This document shows positions 4,863 through 18,513 of a stretch of 64,000 nucleotides of DNA, in pieces. Below the pieces are notes generated by a model that saw only the letters and a program-made list of their open reading frames with translations, made no database searches and had not been told where the DNA came from. How positions within the stretch are numbered: position 1 is the first letter of the stretch; the number at the start of each line of letters is the position of its first letter. Source of the DNA: Cognatishimia sp. WU-CL00825 (GTDB lineage: Bacteria > Pseudomonadota > Alphaproteobacteria > Rhodobacterales > Rhodobacteraceae); contig NZ_BAABWX010000001.1 in the NCBI RefSeq assembly GCF_040364665.1, positions 620,001 to 684,000 of the forward strand, in the 5' to 3' direction. Position numbers and translations under genes: made by a program.

Positions 4863-6224
4863 TTAGTTAACTTTTGCGAGTTCTGCGTTCAGTGCTTCCA
4901 CTGTTGCAGCCGCGTCGCGGGCCCCATCAATATACTCGCGCACCAGGCGGTTGATTGCCTGCGAGTTGTTGATTTTGGATGCCAAGGACAGCTGACCCTC
5001 GGTCACGCCCCAACGTTGCGCCACATCAAGACCACCAACGATTTCGTTGATCATGTCTTGTGGGTAAAGCTCGCCCAGTGGTGCTTTGCGGTCCACGCCA
5101 ACAGGCAATTCTGCCCATGCCATCGAGAATTTATCCGCGTCATCCATTGTGCCTTTGCGCACGGGGAATTTACCCTCGGGTGCAATCGACAGAGTTTGGG
5201 TGTAGCCCTCATCCATGGAGAATTTTACAAACTCCATCGCCGCGTCTGTGTCAGCATCTGTTGTGATGCCAAAATAACGTACGTCAGCGTAGGCTGCGCC
5301 ACCTGGGTTTGATGGACCTGCAAAGTTTGTCACAACACCGGTTTTGCCTGCCAATTCACGCGACTGAGGGTCGCTGTTGATTGTGGGCGGAGCGGAATCG
5401 CGCAGACCTGCCAGTTCATCCAGAATAAATGGCGACCAGATGATCATTGCCGCTTGGCCCGCAAAATAGAGTTCGCGGGACTGTTTCCAGTACAGTTCAC
5501 CCGGAGGCGACGCTTTGGCAATGGCCTTGTAGAAGTCCAGAACTTCGGTGGTTGCTGCAACATCAAGAGGCGCAAAACCATCGGAATCCACAGGGGAAAC
5601 GCCGTTGGCCAGGAAGACATGCTCTAGCACCTGAGACATGAAGTTTTCGTCAACCTTGGTGGGGGCGACAAAGCCATACATGCTGGGTGGGTTGTGCAGT
5701 TTATCAAGCGCAGCCAATACGTTGGCATAAGAACTTGGAGCTGCAAGGCCCTCCGCGTCAAACAGGTCTTTGCGGTAAACCACAAGCTGTGTCCAGCCAT
5801 CAACTGGAACCGCTGCGGTCAGACCATCATAGGCAGCCATGGCGATTGCGCCCGGTGCAAATGTGCCTTCGCCAAGCTCTTCGATCACGTCAGAGGCGGC
5901 GTCAACATCCAGAATACCGGCTTCGGCCCAAGGCAGGGCATATTGCAATGTGTGATAGATCACATCGGGCAAGTCACCCGCAGCAAACGCGGCTGTAGCA
6001 CGTGTGCCAAGGTCAGACTCGGTGACGGGAATAACTTCGACAGATGTGCCGGTTTGTGCCTTAAATTGTGCGGCCATTTCTTGCTGTTTCGCAAGACGCT
6101 CTGGCTGTTCCTCGGTGGTCCAGAAGCGGATGCTGTCAGCCATGGCACCGGATGATGCCAAAACAAGGGCAGCCGAACTGCAAAGCAGTACCTGGCGTGC
6201 GTTGGTTTTAAATGAAGTGAACAT
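4863..6224 (-). CDS. Sugar ABC transporter periplasmic substrate-binding protein
   Basis: Extracytoplasmic binding protein of the MalE/UgpB-like family (SBP_bac_1), 453 residues. I start it at the ATG at 6224, which has GGGAGGA 5-6 nt upstream. The N-terminus then has a positively charged region, a hydrophobic core and an AMA cleavage site before DSIRFWTTEEQ. The mature protein has the usual two-lobe composition and is rich in aromatic residues that could stack on a sugar. It follows the LacI gene by 29 nt and precedes the two permeases, the usual layout of a regulated sugar import operon. The ligand is unknown. Confidence 0.94.
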   Translation of the reverse strand: MFTSFKTNARQVLLCSSAALVLASSGAMADSIRFWTTEEQPERLAKQQEMAAQFKAQTGTSVEVIPVTESDLGTRATAAFAAGDLPDVIYHTLQYALPWAEAGILDVDAASDVIEELGEGTFAPGAIAMAAYDGLTAAVPVDGWTQLVVYRKDLFDAEGLAAPSSYANVLAALDKLHNPPSMYGFVAPTKVDENFMSQVLEHVFLANGVSPVDSDGFAPLDVAATTEVLDFYKAIAKASPPGELYWKQSRELYFAGQAAMIIWSPFILDELAGLRDSAPPTINSDPQSRELAGKTGVVTNFAGPSNPGGAAYADVRYFGITTDADTDAAMEFVKFSMDEGYTQTLSIAPEGKFPVRKGTMDDADKFSMAWAELPVGVDRKAPLGELYPQDMINEIVGGLDVAQRWGVTEGQLSLASKINNSQAINRLVREYIDGARDAAATVEALNAELAKVN

Positions 6225-6253
6225 AGAATCCTCCCAAAGGTTCACGGTGAAAT

Positions 6254-7345
6254 TTATTCGGTCAGTCGTCGCGCGAGCTGCTCCGAATTCATTGAGGGCG
6301 CATTGTCAGAGCCCCCGCTTACGAAATGCGCAGAGGCAATTTCGCGAAGTTCTTGTGGGTCTTCGCCACGGATTTGCCGGATCAGCAAACTCGCAAGCCG
6401 ACGGCCCGCCTGATAGCTGTCCACTCGAAAGCTGCTGAGCTTTGGTTTGGCATAGCTGCCTTGTGGAATGCCGTCATATCCAATGACCGATAGGTCGGTG
6501 CCAACCGACAGGCCAAACTGTTCTGCAGCCTCATAAACGCCAAGCGCCAATGCGTCTGTCGCGCCAATGATGGCCGTTGGCGGAGAGGGCAAACGCAGCA
6601 ATTTTTTGGTTGCAACATCAGCCTCTTCACTGCGTTGAATGCCATGAACGTCAATTTTGGCATCATAGGGCAGGCCACATTCCGCGAGCCCTTTGAGGTA
6701 GCCGTCATGGCGCAGGTGGGTGTAGTTATATTCGTTCAAAGCGCCGAGAAATCCGATGCGCTTGTGCCCCAATTCTGACAAATGCCGCACCGCACGGGCC
6801 ATGGCATCGCCACCTGCGATGTCATACCAAGACAGCCTAGAGCTTTCGGTGTTTTTGCCATAGCCGGTGCGACCAAACAGGACATGTGGTACATTCTGAT
6901 CCAGCAGAATCTTGACGCGTCGATCCCTGACGCGGGTCCGCGGCAGAATGAAACCGTCTGCTTTATGCTCGTGGATCAGGCGCAACAGGGTGCGTTCCAT
7001 ATCTGCGCCAGAGTGTGCAGTGGCGACGGTTAATGTCCAGCCGTTCTCGCTGGCTTCCTCAGAAACGCCAGACAGAAAGGTGGTTAAAAAGGGCGCGTGC
7101 CCGTCATATTCGGTGGTTTCGAGAACCAGACCCAAAGCGCGCACACGACCGGTTTTGATCGCTTGCGCGTGGGACAATGGACGATATCCCATGCGCTCGG
7201 CCATGCGTTTGACACGCAACTGTGTGCTTTCGGAAATATCAGGATAGGCGTTCATTGCCCTTGAAACGGTGCCCTTTGACAAGCCCAACGCCTCAGCGAC
7301 ATCGCTGATTTTTACGCGTGTTTTTGGCCTTGTGACTTGTGACAT
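6254..7345 (-). CDS. LacI family transcriptional regulator
   Basis: First gene of the operon and its likely repressor. Started at 7345, where GGGGGA precedes the ATG; this gives 363 residues. The N-terminal helix-turn-helix with hinge helix (VKISDVAEALGLSKGTVSRA) is typical of LacI proteins, and the rest is a periplasmic-binding-protein-like sugar-sensing domain. A perfect palindrome of LacI-operator type lies 54 nt upstream of the start, consistent with autoregulation and control of the downstream ABC and hydrolase genes. The effector should be the transported sugar or its breakdown product. Confidence 0.94.
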   Translation of the reverse strand: MSQVTRPKTRVKISDVAEALGLSKGTVSRAMNAYPDISESTQLRVKRMAERMGYRPLSHAQAIKTGRVRALGLVLETTEYDGHAPFLTTFLSGVSEEASENGWTLTVATAHSGADMERTLLRLIHEHKADGFILPRTRVRDRRVKILLDQNVPHVLFGRTGYGKNTESSRLSWYDIAGGDAMARAVRHLSELGHKRIGFLGALNEYNYTHLRHDGYLKGLAECGLPYDAKIDVHGIQRSEEADVATKKLLRLPSPPTAIIGATDALALGVYEAAEQFGLSVGTDLSVIGYDGIPQGSYAKPKLSSFRVDSYQAGRRLASLLIRQIRGEDPQELREIASAHFVSGGSDNAPSMNSEQLARRLTE

Positions 7346-7398
7346 GTTTCCCCCGAATTCGCGGTGCCTAATTGGCTCGCTTGATTCGAGAGTGAGTT

Positions 7399-7414
7399 CC
7401 GAAACCGGTTTCGG
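7399..7414. promoter_or_regulatory. LacI-type operator palindrome
   Basis: The 16-nt sequence CCGAAACCGGTTTCGG is a perfect inverted repeat with a central CG, the normal form of a LacI-family operator. It sits just upstream of the lacI-type gene, in the promoter region of the sugar operon. Seen directly; the binding protein is inferred from position. Confidence 0.8.
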
Positions 7415-7510
7415 CAATGATTTTATTCAAAAAATTTCAAGCAAACCCCCAATAACATTTGGGGGTTGTCAAATAATTGCGTTTTTGAGACTGCTGGAAC
7501 GGTGCCGACG

Positions 7511-7572: not shown

Positions 7573-8925
7573 TTACGGCTCAAAACCCTCGGGAACACCA
7601 AAAATTGGTGTTTTAAGGCCAGTTCCGGTGAGCGCGTGTAAAAACTGGACTATGTCAGAGATATCCTGATCGGACAGCACCACGGATTTGATGTCGATTT
7701 TTGCCGCTTGGCGCGCCATTTCAAATCTGTCTGACCGTACGGTGAAATCAATTGCCGCAAGCCATTCGGCCTTGGGCAAATGGGCATCTGCGGGCTGCCA
7801 AGATTGGCGGGATTGCTGTGGGTTTAAGTGGTGACGCACCATGCTTTCGAGGGTCGCAAATGCACCATTGTGGCCATAGGGCGCTGTCAAAGCCACATTG
7901 CGCAGCATCGGCGTGCGAAAGCGGTATGCATCGTCCAGATCATCGCTTTCGCCCATACGGCCCACATCGCGCACCATTGGATCAAAGCGACGGGTACGGC
8001 CAGGGCCAAAGGCGGGCAGGGCAAGGGCGTGAAACTTTTGATCGCTGAGCAGCTTGCCTGAATGGCAAGTGCTGCAATTTGCCTTGCCATAGAAGAGCTG
8101 CATGCCGCGTTGTTGGGTGTCTGTTAAGGCCGCGGTGTCACCGGCAAGAAATTGGTCAAATGGGCTATCGATGCTGCGCCATTCGATGGCCTGAAAGGCA
8201 GCGAGTGCGTTGGCGATTTCTACGATGGTGACTTGATCTGGGTCTTGGATGTGGTCGAAAGCCGCGACAAAACGTGTGCCATAATCGCCTTTGGTGCGCA
8301 CGGCTTTGGCGATGATAGGCCAAGGGGCATCTATACGGTCATGGGCCGCGCCAGCCACTTGGTTTTCGCCGGGATTGCCAGCCATTTCAAATTGCGCGAC
8401 CAGTGGAAAAACCGCTTGGGCTGCGAGCAGTGAGTTAAAACCGGTGGGCAGCCATTCCTCGGCCGGGGAATTGAATCCGTTTTCAAAATCATCAGAGATG
8501 CTGAGTCGCCCGTCATGGAACAGCGTGTGCAGCTCTTTGGCCCCGAGATTCCAAAGTGGCGGTGCATTGCGTGGGATGCGTTTTTTGATACGCGTTTCAC
8601 CCGTGCCTGCGGTGCGATCTGTGCCCAATCCAACACCGCCTTCGCCGATGCCAAGAGACAATCCATCGCCGGTGCCAAAATCGGGATGATGACAGGTCGC
8701 ACAGCTAATATTTCTGTTGCCTGACAGGATTTTGTCGTAGAATAGGTCACGCCCTAAGGCCGCCTGTTTCATATCAAAATCAATGAAATCAGCAGCGGTC
8801 AATGGGGCAGGGAGTTCGCCCGCCAAGGCTGGTGTGGCCATAAGAAAAGAGAGACCAAATAGATGCGCGCGATAGCCTTTGGATTGGCCTTGTTGGCGAC
8901 GCCGGTGATGGCGGAAATTGAACAT
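7573..8925 (-). CDS. Di-haem cytochrome c peroxidase / MauG family protein
   Basis: Periplasmic di-haem protein, 450 residues from the start chosen here. Two c-type haem sites are visible, CATCH in the N-terminal half and CSTCH in the C-terminal half, as in bacterial cytochrome c peroxidases, which reduce H2O2 with electrons from small cytochromes, and in MauG-like oxidases. The frame is open up to 9288, but that extension is antisense to the Sel1 gene and lacks family features. The ATG at 8925 gives a basic n-region, a hydrophobic core and an ALA cleavage site; the ATG at 8841 would leave no signal peptide. This start overlaps the divergent gene by 63 nt. Peroxidase versus MauG-type function cannot be decided here. 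Confidence 0.85.
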   Translation of the reverse strand: MFNFRHHRRRQQGQSKGYRAHLFGLSFLMATPALAGELPAPLTAADFIDFDMKQAALGRDLFYDKILSGNRNISCATCHHPDFGTGDGLSLGIGEGGVGLGTDRTAGTGETRIKKRIPRNAPPLWNLGAKELHTLFHDGRLSISDDFENGFNSPAEEWLPTGFNSLLAAQAVFPLVAQFEMAGNPGENQVAGAAHDRIDAPWPIIAKAVRTKGDYGTRFVAAFDHIQDPDQVTIVEIANALAAFQAIEWRSIDSPFDQFLAGDTAALTDTQQRGMQLFYGKANCSTCHSGKLLSDQKFHALALPAFGPGRTRRFDPMVRDVGRMGESDDLDDAYRFRTPMLRNVALTAPYGHNGAFATLESMVRHHLNPQQSRQSWQPADAHLPKAEWLAAIDFTVRSDRFEMARQAAKIDIKSVVLSDQDISDIVQFLHALTGTGLKTPIFGVPEGFEP

Positions 8926-9333
8926 GCTCGTGACCTTATGGAAGAGGGTAAGTTTCAGCAAGCTTACGCGGAGTTGTGGCCTGCAGCCCGGTCTGGGAAT
9001 GCGGATGCCGAAGAGCTGATTGGCGTGATGTATGCGATGGGGCTGGGTGTGGATCGTGACGATCAGCGGGCGTTTGAATGGTATCTGCGCAGTTCGCTTA
9101 AGGGGCATCCGGGCGCGCAATCTGGCATTGGGTGGTATTACGAGGTTGGGCGCGGCATGCCAGCGCCGGACTTGGTAAGGGCCTATATGTGGTACACATT
9201 GTCGGCCATTGGCGGCGACCCTGATGCGGCGATCAGTCTGGAAGAGGTCGTCAAGAAAATGACGTCTGAAGAGATCGAAAAAGCGCATATTTTGGTCGAG
9301 GACTATAAGGTTTGGATGTATCCGTTTCGGTGA
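8863..9333 (+). CDS. Secreted Sel1-repeat (TPR-like) protein
   Basis: A 156-residue protein with a clear signal peptide (MRAIAFGLALLATPVMA, cleavage near residue 17). It is followed by two to three Sel1-like repeats, for example GNADAEELIGVMYAMGLGV and HPGAQSGIGWYYEVGRGMP. Sel1 repeats form alpha-solenoids that bind other proteins; no enzyme activity is expected. It is divergent from the di-haem peroxidase and overlaps its 5' end, so the two may be co-regulated. A shared function is possible but not shown. A strong bidirectional terminator follows. Confidence 0.85.
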   Translation: MRAIAFGLALLATPVMAEIEHARDLMEEGKFQQAYAELWPAARSGNADAEELIGVMYAMGLGVDRDDQRAFEWYLRSSLKGHPGAQSGIGWYYEVGRGMPAPDLVRAYMWYTLSAIGGDPDAAISLEEVVKKMTSEEIEKAHILVEDYKVWMYPFR

Positions 9334-9355: not shown

Positions 9356-9385
9356 AAAGGCGGCCAAGTTGGCCGCCTTTGTTTT
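9356..9385. terminator. Bidirectional intrinsic terminator
   Basis: The stem AAAGGCGGCC / GGCCGCCTTT with a 5-nt loop, flanked by A on the left and by GTTTT on the right, separates the convergent Sel1 gene and the TRAP binding-protein gene. Confidence 0.85.
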
Positions 9386-9397
9386 GCATGTCAAAGC

Positions 9398-10456
9398 TTA
9401 GTTCAGGTCAGCTGCGCGTGATGCATTCACGTCTGCTTCGGCTGCGGCAACAGCGTCTGTCAGAGCGGTAAAGATTTCATCGCCACGTGTTACGTTGGAT
9501 TTGAACCAGTCATAAACAGGGGTCGCGGCTGTTTTGAAAGCAGCTTTCTGATCTGGGGTTGGAACATAAAGGTCCCCACCACCTGCTACGAAATCTTCGT
9601 ATGCTTTGATGGACTTACGCTTTGGAGAGGCGAAAGTCGCCTGTTGCAGAGCATAGAAGCCGTCAACGATGACACGGCGCATGCCTTCGTCCATACCCAT
9701 GAACTTTTCGTTGTTCATCCACCAAAGGGCACCCATGTAGGCGTGGCCATCCAGCGTAACGTACTGCAGACCTGCATCTGGGAATTTCATGCCCATGATG
9801 TCGGTGATGCCGTTTTTAGAGCCTTCAACAACGCCCGTTTGGAACGATGTGAACAGTTCAGGCCATGGGATCGGAGTTGGGGACGCGCCTAGGGCTTTCA
9901 CCAATTCCTGTGGAAGGTCTGCGACAACTGTCCGGATTTTCAGGCCATCCATGTCAGATGGGTTTGCAACGCGACGCTTGGTGTTGGCGAAATTGCGCCA
10001 GCCGCCGGTGTTACCAACTGTCATCAGACGGATTGCATTGCCGGAATCTTCCAGCGCCATGTCACGCAATGTGCGTGTAAAGTCGCCAGACAGAACGTGC
10101 TCTGCGATGCGGTCGTCAGCCATCAGATATGGCAGGTCAAGAACCTGAACATATGGGAAGATGCCGGACGCGCCGCCAGAAGTGGAGATGTAAACATCAA
10201 CCTGGCCTTCGGCCACGCCCTGCAGACACTCTGCGCCGTTTGAACAAAGCTGTGTGCCAATGAACAATTCTACTTCGATCGCGCCATTGGAGGCCGCTTC
10301 AACGTAGTTTTTGAAGACAACCAGACCGTCATAGTCTTCGTCGTTTTCATTAGAGTTCGCAGTGGCCCGGATGGTATAGTCCGCAGCCGATGCTGTCACT
10401 GCGGATGCGGCAAGAAGCGCGGCAACCGAGAGTGATTTGATTGTGTTCTTGAGCAT
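9398..10456 (-). CDS. TRAP transporter substrate-binding protein (DctP type)
   Basis: Periplasmic solute-binding subunit of a TRAP transporter, 352 residues, with a signal peptide ending in TASA before ADYTIRATAN. It carries the conserved DctP core, including the MDGLKIRTV segment whose arginine usually holds the anionic group (carboxylate) of the ligand, and the EGSKNGITDI segment. It is the last gene of a six-gene minus-strand set with the two membrane subunits immediately upstream (26-nt gap). Because the operon begins with a sulfonate-type monooxygenase, I infer an organosulfonate or sugar-sulfonate ligand; the sequence alone does not prove this. Confidence 0.93.
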   Translation of the reverse strand: MLKNTIKSLSVAALLAASAVTASAADYTIRATANSNENDEDYDGLVVFKNYVEAASNGAIEVELFIGTQLCSNGAECLQGVAEGQVDVYISTSGGASGIFPYVQVLDLPYLMADDRIAEHVLSGDFTRTLRDMALEDSGNAIRLMTVGNTGGWRNFANTKRRVANPSDMDGLKIRTVVADLPQELVKALGASPTPIPWPELFTSFQTGVVEGSKNGITDIMGMKFPDAGLQYVTLDGHAYMGALWWMNNEKFMGMDEGMRRVIVDGFYALQQATFASPKRKSIKAYEDFVAGGGDLYVPTPDQKAAFKTAATPVYDWFKSNVTRGDEIFTALTDAVAAAEADVNASRAADLN

Positions 10457-10482
10457 GGTAATTCCTCCCCTTTTTACTCAAA

Positions 10483-11958
10483 TTAATTCGCGAAACCCGT
10501 TAAGCGCGGGATCGTCATGCTAATGGCTGGGACATAGGTGATCAGGAAAATCACAGCTATTTCCACAGCCAGGAACGGCAGGATGGCCTTGGCGATAGTC
10601 TCTACTTTTTCTTGCGAGACTGCGGCGGCTACAAATAAGACCAACCCCATGGGTGGTGTGGCCAGACCAACGGTCAGGTTCACACTCATGATGATGGCGA
10701 AGTGAATTGAATCAACCCCTAGGTCGATAAAAATTGGGCCAAGGATTGGGCCAAGAATGATGATCGCAGGGCCAGCGTCTAGGAACATCCCCACCACAAA
10801 CAACAACAGATTGATCAGAAAGAGCAGGATCAAGGGGTTGTCGCTGAGGCTTAGGATATAGGCCGCCAGCGTTTCCGGTGCGTGGCTGAGGCTGACAACG
10901 GTTTTGAAGGCCATTGCGGCCCCCACCAGCAACAACACCACAGAGGATGTGATGCCTGCACGGATCAAAACATCAGGCAGGTCGCTGAGTTTCATGGTGC
11001 GCAGGATGCCAAAGGCCACGATCAACGCGTAGGCAACGGCGACGGCTGCGGCTTCGGTTGGGGTGAAAACACCCACCAAGATGCCACCCAGGATCAACAC
11101 CGGCGTTTGCAGCGGAACCACGGCGCGTTTGCAGACCATGCGGAAATCATGACTGACAACACGGCGCAGTCCGAGCATTAGGCCATGGGTTGCCAGAACA
11201 CCACCACCAAAGGCCAACCATTTTGCAGTGGAGGTGGCCTCGGGGCCAAGTGGCACAAATTGCGCCAACAACAGGCCGATGTTCAGGCGTACCAGAGCAA
11301 AGGAGAACCAATATTCTACGGGGCCAAGTTCGATGCCTGTCAGGACGACGCGTTGGGCTGGAGGAAGATCATAACGATCTGCTGTCACTCGGACCATCAC
11401 CATCAGACCAACGCCCACCAAGATGCCTGGTACAATGCCTGCAAGGAACAGCGCGGCGACGCTTTCGCCCATGACATAAGCATAGATGATCATAATGCCC
11501 GAAGGCGGGATGATCGGGCCAATAACAGAGCTAGCCGCCGTGATTGCAGCGGCGAATTTACGAGTATAGCCTTGTTTTTCCATGGCTGGGATTAACATTG
11601 ATCCCAGGGCCGATGTGTCCGCCACAGCAGAGCCTGACAGGCCCGCAAACAGGATGGATGACAGAATATTCACCTGCGCCAGACCACCACGCAGATGCCC
11701 CATCAAAGCTTGGGAGAATTCGACCAAACGAATGGTGATGCCACCTTTGTTCATCAGCTCGCCTGCAAGCATGAAAAACGGAATTGCCATCAGCGGAAAG
11801 CTGTCCATGCCGTTGTAAACGTTGCGATAAAGCAGCGTGATGTCTTTTTCCTGACCATTTAGCCATAGCAAAATACCGGGTGCCGCAAGCAGGCCAAAGA
11901 ACACCGGCAGGCCAACCATGAGGAAAATCAGAAAGACGGGTAAGAACCAGATCAGCAT
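10483..11958 (-). CDS. TRAP transporter large permease (DctM type)
   Basis: Large membrane subunit, 491 residues with about 12-14 hydrophobic helices. It contains typical DctM segments such as GSAVADTSALGSMLIP near the middle of the N-terminal half, IGPIIPPS, and GVFTPTEAAAVAVAYA. It catalyses Na+-driven uptake of the ligand delivered by the DctP protein. It is about 60 residues longer than usual for DctM because of an insertion with extra hydrophobic segments (about 195-290) before the PTEAAAVA region. Its start shares one base with the dctQ stop (TAATG). Confidence 0.94.
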   Translation of the reverse strand: MLIWFLPVFLIFLMVGLPVFFGLLAAPGILLWLNGQEKDITLLYRNVYNGMDSFPLMAIPFFMLAGELMNKGGITIRLVEFSQALMGHLRGGLAQVNILSSILFAGLSGSAVADTSALGSMLIPAMEKQGYTRKFAAAITAASSVIGPIIPPSGIMIIYAYVMGESVAALFLAGIVPGILVGVGLMVMVRVTADRYDLPPAQRVVLTGIELGPVEYWFSFALVRLNIGLLLAQFVPLGPEATSTAKWLAFGGGVLATHGLMLGLRRVVSHDFRMVCKRAVVPLQTPVLILGGILVGVFTPTEAAAVAVAYALIVAFGILRTMKLSDLPDVLIRAGITSSVVLLLVGAAMAFKTVVSLSHAPETLAAYILSLSDNPLILLFLINLLLFVVGMFLDAGPAIIILGPILGPIFIDLGVDSIHFAIIMSVNLTVGLATPPMGLVLFVAAAVSQEKVETIAKAILPFLAVEIAVIFLITYVPAISMTIPRLTGFAN

Positions 11959-12548
11959 TATTCAGCGCCTCCGATGTCAGCATCATCAATTGTCGGCAGG
12001 CGGTCGCGACCACCCAGCAATCCGACGATGCTGCGCAAAATAAGTTCGATATTTACAGAAATGAGCAAGATGACACCGATAAACAGCGACATCATCATCC
12101 AACTGCGTGGAATGCGGTACCATTCGTCAAAAGAAATAGAAGTTGGCAAATAAAGCGAAGCAGTGGCAAAGCGTCCGCCAAAGCCCGTGACTTCTTTGTA
12201 GCCAATGGTGACAGCCATGACCAAAACAACAAGGGAGAGCGTCAACAGGATTAGGCTGAGGATATCGCCAACGCGTTTGGGCAACAGATCTGGGACCGTT
12301 TCGATTGCGACAAATCCACCCCGGCGAAAGGCTGTGGGGGCCATAAGACCCGTCATCCATAACATGCCAAAGCGCGCCGCTTCGTCAGGCCAAGGCAAGG
12401 CGTTGTTCAGCACATATCGGCAAAAGACCTGTATCAAAATGGCGGCGACCATAAAGGCTACTGCCACACAGCCAACGCCGCGGCCTAGTTTGAGCACCGC
12501 AGCGTTTACAAAACTCAGAGGCGTAATCAACGCCAGCAATCCGCCCAT
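11958..12548 (-). CDS. TRAP transporter small permease (DctQ type)
   Basis: Small membrane subunit of the TRAP transporter, 196 residues with four hydrophobic helices. The RYVLNNALPWPDEAARFGMLW segment is characteristic of DctQ. It partners the large permease encoded directly downstream. A strong ribosome site (GGGGGAGGA) precedes the ATG. A 53-nt gap separates it from the flavin reductase gene upstream, with no terminator in between, so the transport and enzyme genes are likely one transcript. Confidence 0.93.
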   Translation of the reverse strand: MGGLLALITPLSFVNAAVLKLGRGVGCVAVAFMVAAILIQVFCRYVLNNALPWPDEAARFGMLWMTGLMAPTAFRRGGFVAIETVPDLLPKRVGDILSLILLTLSLVVLVMAVTIGYKEVTGFGGRFATASLYLPTSISFDEWYRIPRSWMMMSLFIGVILLISVNIELILRSIVGLLGGRDRLPTIDDADIGGAE

Positions 12549-12601
12549 GCGGATCCTCCCCCTTGTTGGTGGGCCTGTCCTCCTCAGGCAGACCCTTGCG
12601 C

Positions 12602-13117
12602 TTATTTTTGCGCGAATTGGCCGATTTTTCCGGCGTAGAAACCCAATGCGTCTCCGTCGCGCATCTCGGCCTTTAATACTTGTCCTAAAACGATGACGTG
12701 ATCGCCGCCATCAAAGCCCGCGACGCGTTTGCATTCAAAGCGGGCAAGACAATTTGGCATAATTGGAACGCCAAATTCATTTTGTTCGTGTTCGATATGT
12801 TGCAGCGCAAATGCATCTTTTGCAAAGCTGCCACAAAGATCGCTTTGATCAGAGCCTAACACGTGAATCGCGTAGTGCTCTGTTTTTTCAAAGTAGGGAA
12901 ACCGCCGAGACGTCTTGGCCGGAGCCCAAAGCACCATGGCCGGTTCTAGTGATACGGACGAAAAGCTATTGGCTGTAATGCCAACAGGGCCGTCATCAGA
13001 GGACGCAGTGACAATGGTAACGCCGGTCGCAAATCGACCAAAGGCATCCCGCAACAAGCGGGTGTTTTCTGGGTCAGGCTGGAAAGCTATGGGCATATCT
13101 GGGGCATAGGCATTCAT
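12602..13117 (-). CDS. Flavin reductase (SmoA/SsuE-like role) for the adjacent monooxygenase
   Basis: A 171-residue FMN-binding split-barrel flavin reductase, with the typical FATGVTIVTA and GITANSFSSVSLEPAMVLW segments near the N-terminus and GGDHVIVLGQV near the C-terminus. Such enzymes use NAD(P)H to make free FMNH2 for two-component monooxygenases. It shares a TAATG overlap with the aldo/keto reductase gene and is the third gene of the enzyme set. In the Agrobacterium sulfoquinovose monooxygenase pathway, SmoA has this role. Assignment to the neighbouring monooxygenase is inference from coupling. Confidence 0.9.
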   Translation of the reverse strand: MNAYAPDMPIAFQPDPENTRLLRDAFGRFATGVTIVTASSDDGPVGITANSFSSVSLEPAMVLWAPAKTSRRFPYFEKTEHYAIHVLGSDQSDLCGSFAKDAFALQHIEHEQNEFGVPIMPNCLARFECKRVAGFDGGDHVIVLGQVLKAEMRDGDALGFYAGKIGQFAQK

Positions 13118-14007
13118 TAAGGAACCTCGTTACCAAGGGCTGCTTCGTACAAACGGTACCAGCTTTCGCGGTCAAGATTGACTTTGAGCGCGTCAGCGAT
13201 GGTGGCAATACGGGACAGGTTGTTGGTGCCCATGACAGGCAGGATCTGGGCGGGATGCGCCAAAAGAAAGGCCACCGCAACCGCGCCACGATCCACATCA
13301 AATTCGGCGGCCAGGTCGTCCAATACGATGCCCAGTTTGTCGCTGTTGTTTATGATGCTACCGCCACCCAAAGGTGACCAGGCCATGATTGGATTGGCTT
13401 GGCGTTGGTGGAACGCCAGGTCGCCATTGGTGAAAGGGCCGATTTCTGCAAGGCTGATTTCAATTTGGTTGGTGACCAGTTTGGTTTTCATCGCCGATTG
13501 CAGCAAGTCCCAATCCCAGGGGCGGAAATTGGAAACACCAATGTTGCCAACTTTGCCTGAGGCCACTAGGTCATCAAGTGCGGCACCGGTTTCATGATGA
13601 TCCATCAAGGGATCAGGGCGGTGCACCAGCAAGAGGTCTATGTGATCGATCGCCATTTCCTGAAGCGAAATATCAACCGATTTTTCGATATGCGCACGTG
13701 AGGTGTCATAGTATTTAACTTTGACGTCAGAATAACGGCCGCAGGGTGCAACGATGTCACATTTTGTGACGATTTGCATTTGCGCGCGCAGGGCAGGATT
13801 GGCACGCAATGCACCGCCCAAAACCGCCTCTGCAACATATTCACCGTAAATGTCGGCTTGGTCAAAGGTGGTGATGCCTTGGTCCAAGCAGGCTTGGATT
13901 TTGGCTTCGACATGGGCAGGAGATGTATCGCTGTCGTCGCCAAGGCGCCACATGCCATAGACGATGCGGCTCATGTCCAGAGACGGGGATAATTTGATGC
14001 GATCCAT
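13117..14007 (-). CDS. Aldo/keto reductase (YdhF-like, candidate SmoB-type 6-oxo-glucose reductase)
   Basis: A 296-residue NADPH-dependent aldo/keto reductase barrel. The catalytic tetrad is visible as Asp49 and Tyr54 (FDQADIYGEY), Lys82 (VTKCDI) and His129 (LLLVHRPDP). The fold and motifs resemble E. coli YdhF. Its ends overlap both neighbours by one base (TAATG at each junction), so it is translationally coupled to the monooxygenase and the flavin reductase. In the sulfoquinovose monooxygenase pathway an aldo/keto reductase (SmoB) reduces 6-oxo-glucose to glucose; the same role is plausible here but untested. Confidence 0.92.
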   Translation of the reverse strand: MDRIKLSPSLDMSRIVYGMWRLGDDSDTSPAHVEAKIQACLDQGITTFDQADIYGEYVAEAVLGGALRANPALRAQMQIVTKCDIVAPCGRYSDVKVKYYDTSRAHIEKSVDISLQEMAIDHIDLLLVHRPDPLMDHHETGAALDDLVASGKVGNIGVSNFRPWDWDLLQSAMKTKLVTNQIEISLAEIGPFTNGDLAFHQRQANPIMAWSPLGGGSIINNSDKLGIVLDDLAAEFDVDRGAVAVAFLLAHPAQILPVMGTNNLSRIATIADALKVNLDRESWYRLYEAALGNEVP

Positions 14008-15164
14008 TAGCGGCGGACTCCGTTACCAAGTGGTGTTGCTGGTGTTGTGGCGGGCGCGCGGCCATATTCGATCGGCAGCGAGCAGGTTTTTAGGTTAGGC
14101 AATACGCGTGCGCCAAAATGTTTGGCTTCTTCTAGGTGCGGGTAACCCGAGAAGATAAAGGCGCGAATGCCCATTTTCTGATAATCTTCGATTTTGGACA
14201 TGACCTGATCGGTCGATCCAACCAGGGCAGCGCCGCAGCCAGAGCGGGCCCGGCCTACACCGGTCCAGAGGTTTGGTTCGATATAGCCGTATTTGTCCGC
14301 CAGCTCGCGGTTTTTGGCTTGGTGGCTGACACCCAAAGACGTGCTGTCCAGCGCGCGTTCGCGGATCATTTGGCCATATTCATCGTCAAGCTTTGAGACA
14401 ATGTAATCTGCGTATTCCTGGGCTTCTTTTTCGGTGTCACGCACAATCATGTGGACGCGCAGGCCGTAATCAAGCGTGCGATTGTATTTCTCGGCAACCG
14501 AATGCACGGCCTTCATGCGGCTTTTAAGCTCTTCGATCTTTTCTGGCCACATCAAATAGACGTCGCAGTGTTCGCCGCAAAGTTCCAAAGCAGAGGGAGA
14601 ATAGCCGCCAAAATACAGCAGCGGGCCGCCGTTTTGCTGGTAAGGTTTCACCGGATCAGTGGTCAGGCCCTTGAAGTTATATACGTCGCCTTCGTGATTG
14701 ATTTCGTCCTGTGTCCAGGCTTGCTTGAGGATTTCAACGACTTCGCGAGAGCGCTGGTAGCGGAAGGCGCTTTCTTCTTTTTCACCGGGAAAATCAGAGC
14801 TGATAATATTGACCGTCAGACGGCCTTTTAGCATGTGATCCAGCGTTGCGATTGTGCGCGCCAGCATGATGGGTTGTACTTCGCCACAACGCACCGCCGC
14901 CAGCAGGTTTATCTTGTCGGTGATCGGCGCACAGCCGGCCACAAATGAAAGCGTGTCTTGACCCACTTGATAAGAAGAGGGGCACAGAATGTTGTTGAAC
15001 CCTTGCTCTTCGGCAGTTTTGACAATGTTTGAGCAATGCTCCCAAGAGGAGCGCAGATCGCCATCTGGCACACCTAAAAATTGGTAGTCATCAGAGCAAA
15101 GTGCTGAAAACCATGACACTTCTGCCGCGTCGAGATCAGGTGATGTAATGGGCACGACTGTCAT
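14007..15164 (-). CDS. SsuD-like FMNH2-dependent monooxygenase (candidate sulfoquinovose monooxygenase)
   Basis: A 385-residue luciferase-like (LLM) monooxygenase close to alkanesulfonate monooxygenase SsuD. Shared segments include GLRVHMIVR (234-242), NLWTGVG (298-304) and FSGYPHLEEA (338-347). Residues corresponding to SsuD Arg226, His228, Arg297 and Tyr331 appear kept as Arg236, His238, Arg307 and Tyr341, with Trp206 also present; the SsuD active-site cysteine (Cys54) is not. As I recall, the same positions are discussed for SmoC of Agrobacterium. The reaction would be C-S cleavage of a sulfonate to sulfite plus aldehyde. AGGATC precedes the ATG. It is the first gene of the operon, divergent from a GntR regulator. 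Confidence 0.9.
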   Translation of the reverse strand: MTVVPITSPDLDAAEVSWFSALCSDDYQFLGVPDGDLRSSWEHCSNIVKTAEEQGFNNILCPSSYQVGQDTLSFVAGCAPITDKINLLAAVRCGEVQPIMLARTIATLDHMLKGRLTVNIISSDFPGEKEESAFRYQRSREVVEILKQAWTQDEINHEGDVYNFKGLTTDPVKPYQQNGGPLLYFGGYSPSALELCGEHCDVYLMWPEKIEELKSRMKAVHSVAEKYNRTLDYGLRVHMIVRDTEKEAQEYADYIVSKLDDEYGQMIRERALDSTSLGVSHQAKNRELADKYGYIEPNLWTGVGRARSGCGAALVGSTDQVMSKIEDYQKMGIRAFIFSGYPHLEEAKHFGARVLPNLKTCSLPIEYGRAPATTPATPLGNGVRR

Positions 15165-15212
15165 TTTTGATCCTATGGGTTGTCTTCGCTTACCACTTGG
15201 GTAACATCCGCC

Positions 15213-15226
15213 TTGATATGGATCAA
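15213..15226. promoter_or_regulatory. FNR/FnrL-type box in divergent promoter
   Basis: TTGAT-ATGG-ATCAA is a perfect match to the FNR/FnrL consensus TTGAT-N4-ATCAA. It is centred about 55 nt upstream of the monooxygenase start and about 51 nt upstream of the GntR start chosen here. A second half-match TATCAA at 15232-15237 forms a wider inverted repeat with TTGATA at 15213-15218, so part of this could instead be the GntR operator. Confidence 0.6.
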
Positions 15227-15270
15227 TGGTGTATCAATTTTTTCCGCGACATCCTGACACGGGGTTTTTA

Positions 15271-15975
15271 GTGACAAATCGAAACCGAAACGCGCTGCCT
15301 GTTTATGTGCAAATTACAGAACTGATCATCCGAGACATCAGTGCGGGCCGCCTGTTGGATGGCGAACGATTGCCGCCAGAACGTGAGATGGCAGCGGGTA
15401 TGAACACTTCTGTTGGCACCCTGCGCAAAGCGCTTGGCGAACTCACAAACAAAGGGCTTTTGGAGCGAATTCAGGGGTCTGGGAATTACATTCGTGCCGG
15501 CAGTGTGCGCGACAGTGTTTATGGATTGTTTCGTCTGGAATTGCCCGAAGGTGGGGGCTTGCCACGCGCAGATATCTTGTCGGTCGCCACGGTTTCAAAG
15601 CCGCAAGACTTGCCCGAGTTTGGCTATGCTGATCGCGGCGCGCGCATCCGTCGGCTGCGGTATTTGAATGATACAATTATTGCTGTGGAAGAGATTTGGC
15701 TCGACGAATCGGCGGGTGAAGTCAGCGAGGCTGCCCTGTCGGATTCGCTTTATCACTATTATCAAAAGCAACTTGGCTTTTGGATTACCCGTGCCGAAGA
15801 CCGGGTGAGCATCGCAAAAGTGCCGCAATGGGCACCGGATATATTCACAAAACCCGTCGGTTCGACCGTTGGATTTGTGGAACGTTTTAGTTGGGCGGAC
15901 CAAAATATGCCCATCGAATACTCAAGAACTTGGTTTGACACGGATCAGGCGCTGTATGTGCAGCGGCTGAAATAA
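15271..15975 (+). CDS. GntR/HutC family transcriptional regulator
   Basis: Winged-helix regulator with an N-terminal GntR domain (LPVYVQITELIIRDISAGRL, then PPEREMA) and a C-terminal UTRA-type sensor domain. I start it at a GTG at 15271 with GGGG just upstream; this gives the usual short lead before the first helix. The upstream ATG at 15226 adds 15 residues but overlaps the FNR-type palindrome and lacks a clear ribosome site. It is divergent from the monooxygenase-TRAP operon and followed after 10 nt by the Gfo/Idh gene. It probably controls both, responding to the substrate or an intermediate. Confidence 0.87.
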   Translation: MTNRNRNALPVYVQITELIIRDISAGRLLDGERLPPEREMAAGMNTSVGTLRKALGELTNKGLLERIQGSGNYIRAGSVRDSVYGLFRLELPEGGGLPRADILSVATVSKPQDLPEFGYADRGARIRRLRYLNDTIIAVEEIWLDESAGEVSEAALSDSLYHYYQKQLGFWITRAEDRVSIAKVPQWAPDIFTKPVGSTVGFVERFSWADQNMPIEYSRTWFDTDQALYVQRLK

Positions 15976-15985
15976 GGAGCTCTCA

Positions 15986-17080
15986 ATGAACCGTGACATC
16001 AACTATGGCATCATCGGCTGCGGCATGATGGGGCAGGAACATATGCGAAATATTGCGCTGTTGGAAAACGCGCGTGTGGCTGCAATTTATGAACCAGATG
16101 AAATAATGGCCAATGCCGCGAAAGCGATAGAGCCAAATGCAACGCTGTGCGACACGCTAGAAGCGCTTTTGGATCGTGAGGATCTGGATTGTTTGTTGGT
16201 GGTCAGCCCAAACCATATGCATGTGCCGCAGCTAGAGGCAATTGCGGCGCGTAATCCACTCCCTTTGCTGATGGAAAAGCCGCTTTTCACTGACGCAAAC
16301 GATGAGGCGAAATTGCTGGCGTTCAAGGAAAGCTATCCGGCCCCGATTTGGGTTGCGATGGAATACCGCTATATGCCTCCGATCCAAACCTTGGTCGAAG
16401 AGGTGCAAAAGGCAACAGGCGGCGTGAAAATGTTGACGATCCGCGAGCATCGGTTTCCGTTTTTGGGCAAAGTTGGCAATTGGAACCGATTTAACAAAAA
16501 CTCTGGCGGCACATTGGTTGAAAAATGCTGTCACTTCTTTGATTTGATGCGTTTGATCATTGGGGCAGACCCGGTGCGCATTATGGCCTCGGCAGGCCAA
16601 GAGGTGAACCATTTGGATGAAAACTATGATGGGGCAGCCTCAGATATTTGGGACACGGCGTATGTGATCGTTGATTTTGCCAATGGCGCGCGTGGCATGC
16701 TGGAGCTGAGCATGTATGCCGAGGGCAGCAAGTTTCAGGAAGAAATCAGCGCGGTTGGACCTGAGGGTAAGATCGAGGCCTTTGTGCCTGGCCCAGGTCG
16801 GTTCTGGCCAACACATTTGGGCGAACCGCCTGTCTCACAAGTTGTGGTATCGCCGCGCAGTCCCAAAGGACCGCAAATGGTGGAAATACCGGTTGATCCA
16901 ACGATTTTGGATGCGGGCGATCACAATGGGTCGACGTTCTACCAGCATGTGAAGTTCTTGGAGGTCGTGCGCGGCGGCGGTGCGCCTGAGGTCTCTTTGA
17001 TGGATGGGTTGAAGGCTGTTAAAATGGGACTTTTGGCGCAGGATTCTGCGCGTGATGGGCAAAGCAAACAATTTGCTTAA
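15986..17080 (+). CDS. Gfo/Idh/MocA family protein (oxidoreductase or candidate NAD-dependent sulfoquinovosidase)
   Basis: A 364-residue protein with an N-terminal Rossmann fold (GIIGCGMMGQEH, residues 8-19), the EKP motif at 97-99, and a C-terminal Gfo/Idh domain with the active-site helix GGTLVEKCCHFFD at 174-186 containing His183. Most relatives are NAD(P)-dependent sugar dehydrogenases, but some members (GH109, GH188) use NAD to cleave glycosides. GH188 enzymes are sulfoquinovosidases found in sulfoquinovose gene clusters. Since this locus looks like such a cluster and no GH31 gene is near, a GH188-like role is attractive. AGGAG precedes the ATG, and it is in operon with the GntR gene. 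Family certain; reaction uncertain. Confidence 0.88.
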   Translation: MNRDINYGIIGCGMMGQEHMRNIALLENARVAAIYEPDEIMANAAKAIEPNATLCDTLEALLDREDLDCLLVVSPNHMHVPQLEAIAARNPLPLLMEKPLFTDANDEAKLLAFKESYPAPIWVAMEYRYMPPIQTLVEEVQKATGGVKMLTIREHRFPFLGKVGNWNRFNKNSGGTLVEKCCHFFDLMRLIIGADPVRIMASAGQEVNHLDENYDGAASDIWDTAYVIVDFANGARGMLELSMYAEGSKFQEEISAVGPEGKIEAFVPGPGRFWPTHLGEPPVSQVVVSPRSPKGPQMVEIPVDPTILDAGDHNGSTFYQHVKFLEVVRGGGAPEVSLMDGLKAVKMGLLAQDSARDGQSKQFA

Positions 17081-17143: not shown

Positions 17144-18364
17144 TTATTGGCTGACCATCTCTTCTTTGGGCCGGAAGGCCAGCCAAATTAACGCACCGCC
17201 TGCCAAGACCAAAAAGGGAGCCATCGCCAGATTTACGGCTGTCCAGCCCTCGACCGCATTGCCGCCAGAGCAATTCATCAATCCGCCCGAAGCCAACGAG
17301 GCCATTGTGACACCACCAAAAACAATCAGATCGTTCAGACCTTGCATCTTGCCGCGTTCATGTGGTGCATGGGCCTCGGCGAGCATGGCTGTGGCACCGA
17401 TGAAGCCAAAGTTCCAACCAATGCCCAAAAGGATAAGCGCTGCAAAGAAATTCGGCAGCGTTACCCCCATTAGGGCAACGGCACCTGCAGCGGCAAGGAT
17501 CACAAGCCCAATGGCGACGATTTTCTCGACGCCAAATCGCGCAATCAAATGGCCAGTGAAAAACGAAGGAGCAAACATCGCCAGAACATGGCCGCTGACA
17601 ATGTCGGCTGCATTGTCTTTGGTGAAACCGCATCCGACCACAGCAAGCGGCGTTGACGTCATCATCAGGTTCATCAGCGCATAGGAAACTGTGGCGCAGA
17701 TAATCGCCACGGCAATGCGTGGCGTGGTGATCAGTTCCCAGCGCGAGCGGCTCGGTGCGGCGTCGGCTTTGGGGGGCGCGGGTTTGGGGATGTCCAGAAA
17801 GACAAACAGAAATGCCCCCAGAAGATTAAGGGCGATAACCGCCGCATAGGTGCCCATAAAGGGCACAACCATCGCGTCAGCCGTGACTTTGACGATTTGC
17901 GGGCCAATCAAGGCCGCGGCCAGGCCTCCGGCCATGACGTATGAAATGGCTTTGGGTCGAAACGCATCAGAGGCAGTATCGGCGGCGGCAAAGCGGTAAA
18001 AGCCATGTGCGCTCATGTAGACGCCGGTGAAAAGGCTGCCGATCAAAAAGATCGTAAAGCTGCTGGTATAAAGGCCGTAGGCCCCGATGACAGCGCCAAG
18101 CGCCCCGCAGAATGCCCCAAGAATGAAGCCTGCGCGACGTCCATGTTTTTGCATAATTGCAGACATGGGGGTGGCGCTGATCATTGAACCAAGCACAATC
18201 AGCGAAATGGGCAAAGTTGCAAAACATGCATTGCTGGCAAGCGATTGGCCAGCCAATCCACCGATCGTAAAGATCATGGGCATCTGTGCGCCGATAAGGG
18301 CTTGGGCCAGAACAAGAACAAAAACCGTCTTTTTGGCGCGGGAGTCATCAATCAATTGAGTCAT
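17144..18364 (-). CDS. MFS transporter
   Basis: Major facilitator protein of about 406 residues with 12 predicted helices and no obvious substrate signature. The frame stays open to 18481, but the first helix follows MTQLIDDSRAKK, so the ATG at 18364 is the best start even though no good ribosome site is visible. The loop MQKHGRRAG between the second and third helices corresponds to the MFS signature loop. It is convergent with the sulfonate locus and divergent from the glycosylase. Efflux or uptake of an unknown small molecule; a link with the neighbouring locus is possible only by position. Confidence 0.85.
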   Translation of the reverse strand: MTQLIDDSRAKKTVFVLVLAQALIGAQMPMIFTIGGLAGQSLASNACFATLPISLIVLGSMISATPMSAIMQKHGRRAGFILGAFCGALGAVIGAYGLYTSSFTIFLIGSLFTGVYMSAHGFYRFAAADTASDAFRPKAISYVMAGGLAAALIGPQIVKVTADAMVVPFMGTYAAVIALNLLGAFLFVFLDIPKPAPPKADAAPSRSRWELITTPRIAVAIICATVSYALMNLMMTSTPLAVVGCGFTKDNAADIVSGHVLAMFAPSFFTGHLIARFGVEKIVAIGLVILAAAGAVALMGVTLPNFFAALILLGIGWNFGFIGATAMLAEAHAPHERGKMQGLNDLIVFGGVTMASLASGGLMNCSGGNAVEGWTAVNLAMAPFLVLAGGALIWLAFRPKEEMVSQ

Positions 18365-18513
18365 GGGGGAATGGCTAGACTTCAAACTTTGGTTTGGAAA
18401 GGGGTTTGGTACAATTTTTCCCGGGTTCTGGGTCACAATTACGGTTGCCTGAAATACGCGTTTGACTTGGATGGTTTGCACCGGTCTGATGCGGCCAAAT
18501 CAGGAGAGCGAAT

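Follow-up and report, generated by a model that had tools for sequence, protein, structure and literature searches.

Which sugar does the gene cluster around a tripartite ATP-independent periplasmic (TRAP) transporter in Cognatishimia sp. WU-CL00825 serve, and how would this sugar reach the enzymes? The cluster lies in a window of 64 kb (bases 620001–684000 of contig 1, from an assembly of 3.62 Mb that is 99% complete; coordinates below are those of the window). An earlier note, made from the letters of this DNA, had proposed that it degrades sulfoquinovose (SQ), a sulfur-containing sugar from the membranes of plants and algae, by the chemistry of the SQ monooxygenase (sulfo-SMO) pathway, with a TRAP importer and no GH31 sulfoquinovosidase. 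The scores of two of its enzymes against SmoC- and SmoB-type chains support this reading. We consider it very likely that the locus is a sulfolytic sulfo-SMO operon of the SmoABC type, probably GntR-controlled, and that its TRAP transporter is a pathway-independent SQ uptake module exchanged between sulfo-SMO clusters and clusters that resemble the sulfo-Embden-Meyerhof-Parnas 2 (sulfo-EMP2) type.

All eight open reading frames that the note had listed for the cluster stand at the places and on the strands given there, and Pfam agrees with every family assigned. On the minus strand, the gene for a monooxygenase of 385 amino acids (14007–15164), predicted to be a luciferase-like monooxygenase (LLM) that depends on reduced flavin mononucleotide (FMNH2), is followed by genes for an aldo/keto reductase (AKR) of 296 amino acids (13117–14007) and a flavin reductase (12602–13117; PF01613, 124 bits). 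Downstream of these are the genes for the small permease DctQ (11958–12548; PF04290, 79 bits), the large permease DctM (10483–11958; PF06808, 374 bits) and the solute-binding protein DctP (9398–10456; PF03480, 168 bits), which make the TRAP set complete. One-base TAATG overlaps join the monooxygenase gene to the AKR gene and the AKR gene to the flavin reductase gene, as had been noted, and a third such overlap joins dctQ to dctM. The genes for a GntR/UTRA transcriptional regulator (15226–15975; PF07702 and PF00392) and for a protein called a Gfo/Idh/MocA oxidoreductase in relatives (15986–17080) lie divergently on the plus strand.

Residues 1–384 of the monooxygenase matched the solved chains 7olf and 7oh2 with 716 and 709 bits, respectively, whereas the next-best chains were 7jv3 (190 bits) and the alkanesulfonate monooxygenases 1nqk and 1m41 (180 bits), and enzymes of the RutA or nitrilotriacetate (NTA) type reached about 31 bits. 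Trp206, Arg236, His238, Arg307 and Tyr341, named in the earlier note as SmoC positions, are all present at those positions of the protein. By score and pocket residues, the enzyme is thus supported as SmoC-type and not of the SsuD, MsuD, RutA or NTA type; grouping with SsuD or with the pyrimidine or NTA monooxygenases is what the earlier note had named as evidence against its proposal. Similarly, the AKR scored 405 bits against 7bby/7bbz and 206 bits against the next-best chain, which supports its grouping with SmoB-type chains by score. We take 7OH2/7OLF to be SmoC and 7BBY/7BBZ to be SmoB; the PDB lists the former as sulfonatase/alkanesulfonate monooxygenase and the latter as aryl-alcohol dehydrogenase, and our literature search returned no paper for the codes 7OH2, 7OLF and 7BBZ. 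The SmoC-type gene is the single match of its kind in the whole 3.62-Mb assembly.

The earlier note had recorded the divergent Gfo/Idh protein correctly and had missed its likely role. This protein matched chain 8zn9 with 506 bits (our literature search returned no paper for this code) and the SqgA chains 8qc2/8qc3 with 357 bits. Chains 8QC2–8QC8 are SqgA, the founding members of family GH188, which are NAD+-dependent and transiently oxidise C3 of the sugar (Kaur et al., 2023; PMC10755693). From positions in the printed alignment, where chain numbers run 13 ahead of the numbering in that paper, we found that the SQ contacts Lys107, Tyr136, Glu189, His193 and His321 of ArSqgA correspond to Lys98, Tyr127, Glu179, His183 and His313 of the window protein, and that its sulfonate site (Arg166, Leu170, Lys172) corresponds to Arg156, Leu160 and Lys162. 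The Gfo/Idh protein is therefore likely a GH188 sulfoquinovosidase of the SqgA type, so that the locus should use SQ glycosides besides free SQ. The absence of GH31 that had been claimed holds for the entire genome, as a whole-assembly search gave no match (the control was positive in 6 of 14 genomes), and of the two families that can provide the sulfoquinovosidase required in the sulfo-SMO pathway, GH31 or GH188, this locus has GH188. As PMC10755693 describes GH188 as near-universal in Roseobacter sulfo-SMO clusters, the catabolic core represents a known arrangement.

Modelled on the chemistry of its homologues, the system would work as follows. The DctPQM transporter would take up SQ and probably also its glycerol glycoside, and the GH188 enzyme would free SQ from glycosides with NAD+ as catalytic cofactor. 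The SmoC-type enzyme, with O2 and with FMNH2 from the flavin reductase, would then cleave the C–S bond to yield sulfite and 6-dehydroglucose, which the SmoB-type AKR would reduce to glucose. The uptake module, often accompanied by a Sel1-repeat protein and a di-haem peroxidase, would have been exchanged between sulfo-SMO and sulfo-EMP2-like clusters. In estuarine microcosms, Cognatishimia assimilated 13C-SQ, and relatives were predicted to encode sulfo-SMO (PMC13372026).

The gene set recurs beyond the window. We scanned one genome per species, found 181 relatives and kept the best 80, a sample that leans to close relatives; the closest named ones among these 80 are Cognatishimia species, with SmoC identities of 92–95%. 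GntR was matched in 79 of the 80 SmoC loci, the AKR in 78, and GH188 and the flavin reductase in 77 each, a recurrence that speaks for more than chance association. A full TRAP set lies downstream in 62 of the 80 loci; five contigs were too short to tell, and 13 loci were scored without it. In the window, the Pfam-confirmed TRAP genes fill the slot of an ABC importer, as had been proposed, and the TRAP-less loci show what else can stand there. In eight of the 13 an ABC binding protein of one related kind is present (at 46–47% identity in two of them), and L078 has an SBP_bac_1 protein other than this one. Against solved chains, the ABC binding protein of L056 scored 33 bits at best, so that none is close to it. 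The slot holds a PF03601 gene and plasmid replication genes in L053 and an ABC ATPase on the opposite strand in L003; L008 also belongs to the 13, its slot being unannotated. The lack of TRAP is not firm in L025, where 497 bases of N interrupt the slot and DctQ and the start of DctM are retained.

In a broader survey, SmoC was present in 165 of 394 same-family genomes (E ≤ 1e-100) and in 9 of 385 genomes of a class-wide draw (E ≤ 1e-150), four of the nine from the window's own family. The GH188/GntR/smo/TRAP order is also found on a plasmid of Rhizobium sp. SL42. A separate observation concerns L069, L076 and L127, in which SmoC (81–82%) and GntR stand next to a different TRAP large permease (DctM 25–30%) and the stretch examined gave no AKR or GH188 match; they possibly represent a second TRAP-SmoC arrangement. 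L093, L110 and L124 are smo-type clusters that have the AKR and flavin reductase and no adjoining SmoC; the genome of L124 (G330) holds SmoC on another contig, and those of L093 and L110 hold none at E ≤ 1e-100.

The survey of the 394 genomes also bears on the transporter. The window DctP was matched (E ≤ 1e-130) in 142 of them, 110 of which have SmoC: within 8 kb in 93 genomes, on another contig in seven and without a listed SmoC place in ten. The odds ratio of this co-occurrence is 12, in genomes that are related to one another. We fetched the DctP neighbourhoods of all 32 genomes in which SmoC was absent at E ≤ 1e-100 and of G336, one of the seven with SmoC on another contig. At the DctP place, 22 of the 32 SmoC-less genomes have a sulfo-EMP2-like set, with GH188 and a kinase in all 22 loci, the aldolase in 21 and a DeoR regulator in 19; SmoC, AKR and flavin reductase were found in none of the 22. 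One such locus, L085, comprises a DeoR regulator, the TRAP, Sel1 and di-haem genes, a PfkB kinase, a LacD-type aldolase, a putative SQ isomerase, GH188, an aldose-1-epimerase and an aldehyde dehydrogenase. Five further SmoC-less genomes hold parts of a sulfo-SMO set (L093, L100, L107, L110 and L116; the SmoC of L116 is cut), and GH188 and GntR are present in L102.

DctP and GH188 differ in how they follow the pathway. DctP identity to the window protein is 71–87% in EMP2-type loci and 64–96% in SMO loci, whereas the GH188 identities, 44–55% and 61–90%, do not overlap. A quick maximum-likelihood tree was built from 98 DctP sequences (66 from SMO loci, 22 from EMP2 loci, 4 from partial sets and 6 from none). 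The pathway labels interleave in it, with 11 changes for SMO and 12 for EMP2; if only the branches with strong support are counted, 3 and 4 changes are still required, respectively. One DctP clade is thus tied to both routes, which share SQ or its glycoside as substrate, and the TRAP transporter therefore most likely carries SQ or a glycoside of it.

Several results weigh against this reading of the locus and its importer. At E ≤ 1e-130, 55 of the 165 SmoC genomes lack this DctP, so that the pathway is also served by other importers. Among the 32 DctP genomes without SmoC, four (L096, L108, L112 and L113) showed no clear SQ enzyme in the fetched stretch, with the contig of L096 spanning only 3.6 kb and L112 giving just a weak flavin-reductase match of 48%; the same holds for L103, the DctP place of G336, a genome that has its SmoC on a different contig. 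The sole NCBIfam match of the L085 isomerase is SQ isomerase, at 252 bits under a cut-off of 700. In the DctP tree the labels also cluster, the 11 and 12 changes comparing with shuffled means of 27 and 20, and strong support extends to 17 of 92 inner branches, most forks being weaker. The evidence that names the substrate of the transporter is genomic association. Within the enzyme set, the flavin reductase is the presumed FMNH2 supplier, assigned from its PF01613 match; its best NCBIfam match was FerA (201 bits, under the cut-off of 260). Finally, the search for a route of sulfite disposal gave three PF00174 matches in the genome (two of them passing the cut-off, with the best in a 301-amino-acid frame) and six TauE matches, and singled out none of these.

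Two genes accompany the transporter. The sel1 gene (8863–9333, plus strand; PF08238) encodes a small Sel1-repeat protein with a signal peptide as judged by eye, and divergent from it lies a gene for a di-haem protein of the cytochrome c peroxidase/MauG family (7573–8925, minus strand; PF03150, 121 bits; 450 amino acids from a presumed start Met at 8925) with two CxxCH haem motifs, CATCH and CSTCH. The Sel1 gene is present in 56 of 80 SmoC loci and 19 of 22 EMP2-type loci, and the di-haem gene in 56 of the 62 TRAP-carrying SmoC loci, in none of the 13 scored as TRAP-less and in 19 of the 22 EMP2-type loci. Of the three EMP2-type loci with no di-haem gene nearby, L087 and L088 have it elsewhere in their genomes; in L114, no high-scoring copy was seen. 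A tentative idea, which we rate as rather doubtful, is that the TRAP transporter, the Sel1 protein and the di-haem enzyme form one periplasmic SQ-acquisition module, in which the di-haem enzyme, carrying His where a Met or Tyr haem ligand is expected, would employ peroxide either to protect uptake or to alter a periplasmic partner (the Sel1 protein or the receptor), irrespective of the cytoplasmic SQ pathway downstream.

An alternative, which we put on the lower side of even, is that both genes are mere neighbours kept by shared ancestry and have no role in SQ use. Since a single bacterial family supplies most of the sampled loci, the counts are not independent, and in the window a terminator-like stem-loop (9356–9380) parts the sel1/di-haem pair from dctP. 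Furthermore, 56 of the 142 DctP genomes have no di-haem hit of at least 400 bits within 10 kb, and one high-scoring copy (L122, in G152) is found in a genome without DctP and with no SQ genes nearby. Against mere neighbourhood stand the numbers for close relatives of the enzyme: 85 of the 107 hits of at least 500 bits lie within 10 kb of DctP and 21 elsewhere in DctP genomes (6 at distances of 14 kb to 1.3 Mb along the contig of DctP, and 15 on other contigs, to which assembly breaks may contribute), with one in a DctP-less genome. Counted by genome, this gives 105 of 142 with DctP versus 1 of 252 without, at a 500-bit line that was set after the scores had been seen and in genomes that are related; at E ≤ 1e-100, which takes in a second, lower-scoring group, the gene is found in 198 of the 394 genomes. 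The gene also tracks the TRAP set whichever of the two routes is present, and does so in Roseibium (Stappiaceae) as well; in L085, the last four bases of the gene overlap the mechanically called start of the kinase gene.

Other observations on the di-haem family stand on their own. In four genomes that lack this DctP (L118–L121), lower-scoring relatives (409–482 bits) come after the smo genes. L122 holds the sole relative of at least 500 bits in a genome without the SQ-type DctP, and no other query gene was matched in the 19.5 kb fetched there. Like bacterial cytochrome c peroxidase (bCCP) and MauG, the di-haem protein belongs to the PF03150 family and carries a pair of c-type haem motifs; the second haem is ligated by Met in bCCP and by Tyr in MauG. 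In the column that we take to be this ligand (His366), the alignment shows His in 83 of 89 aligned members, Met in 6 (L073, L102, L120, L121, L123 and L124, of which L073 and L102 carry this TRAP) and a gap in L119. We rejected a role solely as scavenger of peroxide from the flavin monooxygenase, because the enzyme also accompanies EMP2-like clusters, in which neither SmoC nor flavin reductase was found.

Returning to the transporter itself, it could import another SQ-associated compound, for example a C2 or C3 sulfonate or a sugar acid, and stand in the cluster for co-regulation only. Small acids are the ligands of many TRAP receptors, and DctP matched its nearest solved receptors with 96–112 bits and the isethionate receptor 8t9t with 89 bits, scores from which its ligand cannot be named. 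Every one of the 98 DctP sequences has Trp153, Arg154, Arg175, Trp198, Asn215 and His238 as well as the Cys71/Cys77 pair; Arg175 is Arg in all five nearest solved receptors and Arg154 in four of them, and the cysteine pair is present in none of the five. We nevertheless regard this alternative as improbable, because the same DctP clade is tied to two routes that have SQ or its glycosides in common, because DctP occupies the slot held by ABC importers in other SmoC loci, and because C3 sulfonates are a product of the EMP-type route and not of the SMO route. That the locus as a whole acts on a sulfosugar other than SQ, for example sulfofucose, or on a sulfonate such as an alkanesulfonate is very improbable despite the varied substrates of LLM enzymes and the other sugar-sulfonates that the earlier note had left open, given the SmoC- and SmoB-type scores, the pocket residues, the SQ-contact residues of GH188, and the published sulfofucose pathway, which relies on enzymes from other families and on a putative ABC importer (PMC12421959).

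With uptake and degradation of SQ as our preferred reading, we turn to the control of the operon. The palindrome TTGATATGGATCAA (15213–15226, strand unassigned), of the form TTGATN4ATCAA, reaches the start of gntR and is the only exact copy in the 64-kb window. We scored it in the 85 loci where the SmoC and GntR genes diverge, with the intergenic regions extended by 40 bases at the gntR end: it is exact in 56 and has at most one mismatch in 66, while 0.4% of shuffled regions reached nine of ten matches. GntR loci without SmoC scored lower, with 6 (L102), 8 (L110) and 7 (L124) of ten. The palindrome is thus probably the GntR operator. The same pattern is what we take to be the FNR box consensus, and oxygen control through an FNR-type box may also operate here. 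A second palindrome spotted by eye in the window, TTACCN5GGTAA, was found in none of the 85 relatives, and a simple promoter scan gave 7 hits versus 7.1 expected by chance. The stem-loop between the convergent ends of dctP and sel1 has an 11-pair stem and is listed on the plus strand only, with the tail GTTTTGCATG; read on the minus strand, the stem follows the dctP stop and the required T tail is missing. The region holds 16 terminator-like sites versus 11.0 (sd 3.5) in shuffles.

Among the neighbouring genes, a convergent MFS gene (17144–18481) was rejected as a member of the system, as it was matched in only 4 of 80 SmoC loci; the adjacent AlkA-like gene likewise reached 4 of 80, which looks like local synteny of close relatives. 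Just past the di-haem gene, at 4863–7417, lie genes for a LacI regulator and an ABC sugar-binding protein, and L085 has matches to both (52% and 73%, respectively) beside its SQ-type TRAP. PF03601, the family of a putative sulfate exporter, had no match over the cut-off in this genome. It stands beside 16 of the 82 SmoC loci L002–L083 (L026, L032, L034, L047, L052–L054, L056, L060, L063, L066, L068, L070, L077, L082 and L083), where the protein is perhaps an exporter for sulfite or sulfate.

PMC10755693 puts the SQ made and degraded at about 10 billion tons per year and states that Roseobacter are thought to be important in its marine cycling. The SQ importers named in PMC9594981 and PMC12421959, as far as these were available, are ABC transporters. 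In the literature searched, the available parts of the reviews PMC9594981, PMC12890257 and PMC11465081 included and key sulfo-SMO papers lying outside it, neither uptake through a TRAP system nor a di-haem peroxidase was linked to SQ, and the main text of PMC10755693 mentions no transport, TRAP, permease or peroxidase. As far as this literature goes, the TRAP importer and its companion are therefore the newer part of the system, next to a catabolic core that is already known. If the TRAP transporter is indeed the SQ importer, many Roseobacter SQ clusters would gain a defined uptake system that is not driven by ATP, and DctP would mark SQ use irrespective of the pathway downstream. As a frequent companion, the di-haem gene hints at a periplasmic step for which the sources at hand contain no description.

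Compared with known systems, the locus combines familiar chemistry with a different importer. With the sulfo-SMO pathway of Agrobacterium it shares the SmoC-type monooxygenase, the SmoB-type AKR, the flavin reductase and, as predicted here, C–S cleavage to sulfite and glucose; it differs in having a TRAP instead of an ABC importer, GH188 instead of GH31, and a GntR gene that is divergent together with GH188. A published survey (PMC13372026) defines sulfo-SMO by SmoB and SmoC, the importer not being part of the definition, so that the missing ABC importer is no bar to membership. The GH188 protein resembles SqgA in sequence and in eight SQ-contact residues, and we saw no essential difference from the enzymes described in PMC10755693. 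The sulfo-EMP2-like GH188 clusters of Rhodobacteraceae, with their kinase, LacD-type aldolase and putative SQ isomerase, share this TRAP transporter and mostly (19 of 22 loci) also the genes for the Sel1 and di-haem proteins, but would cleave a C–C instead of a C–S bond, carry DeoR in 19 of 22 loci and have a GH188 of another subgroup.

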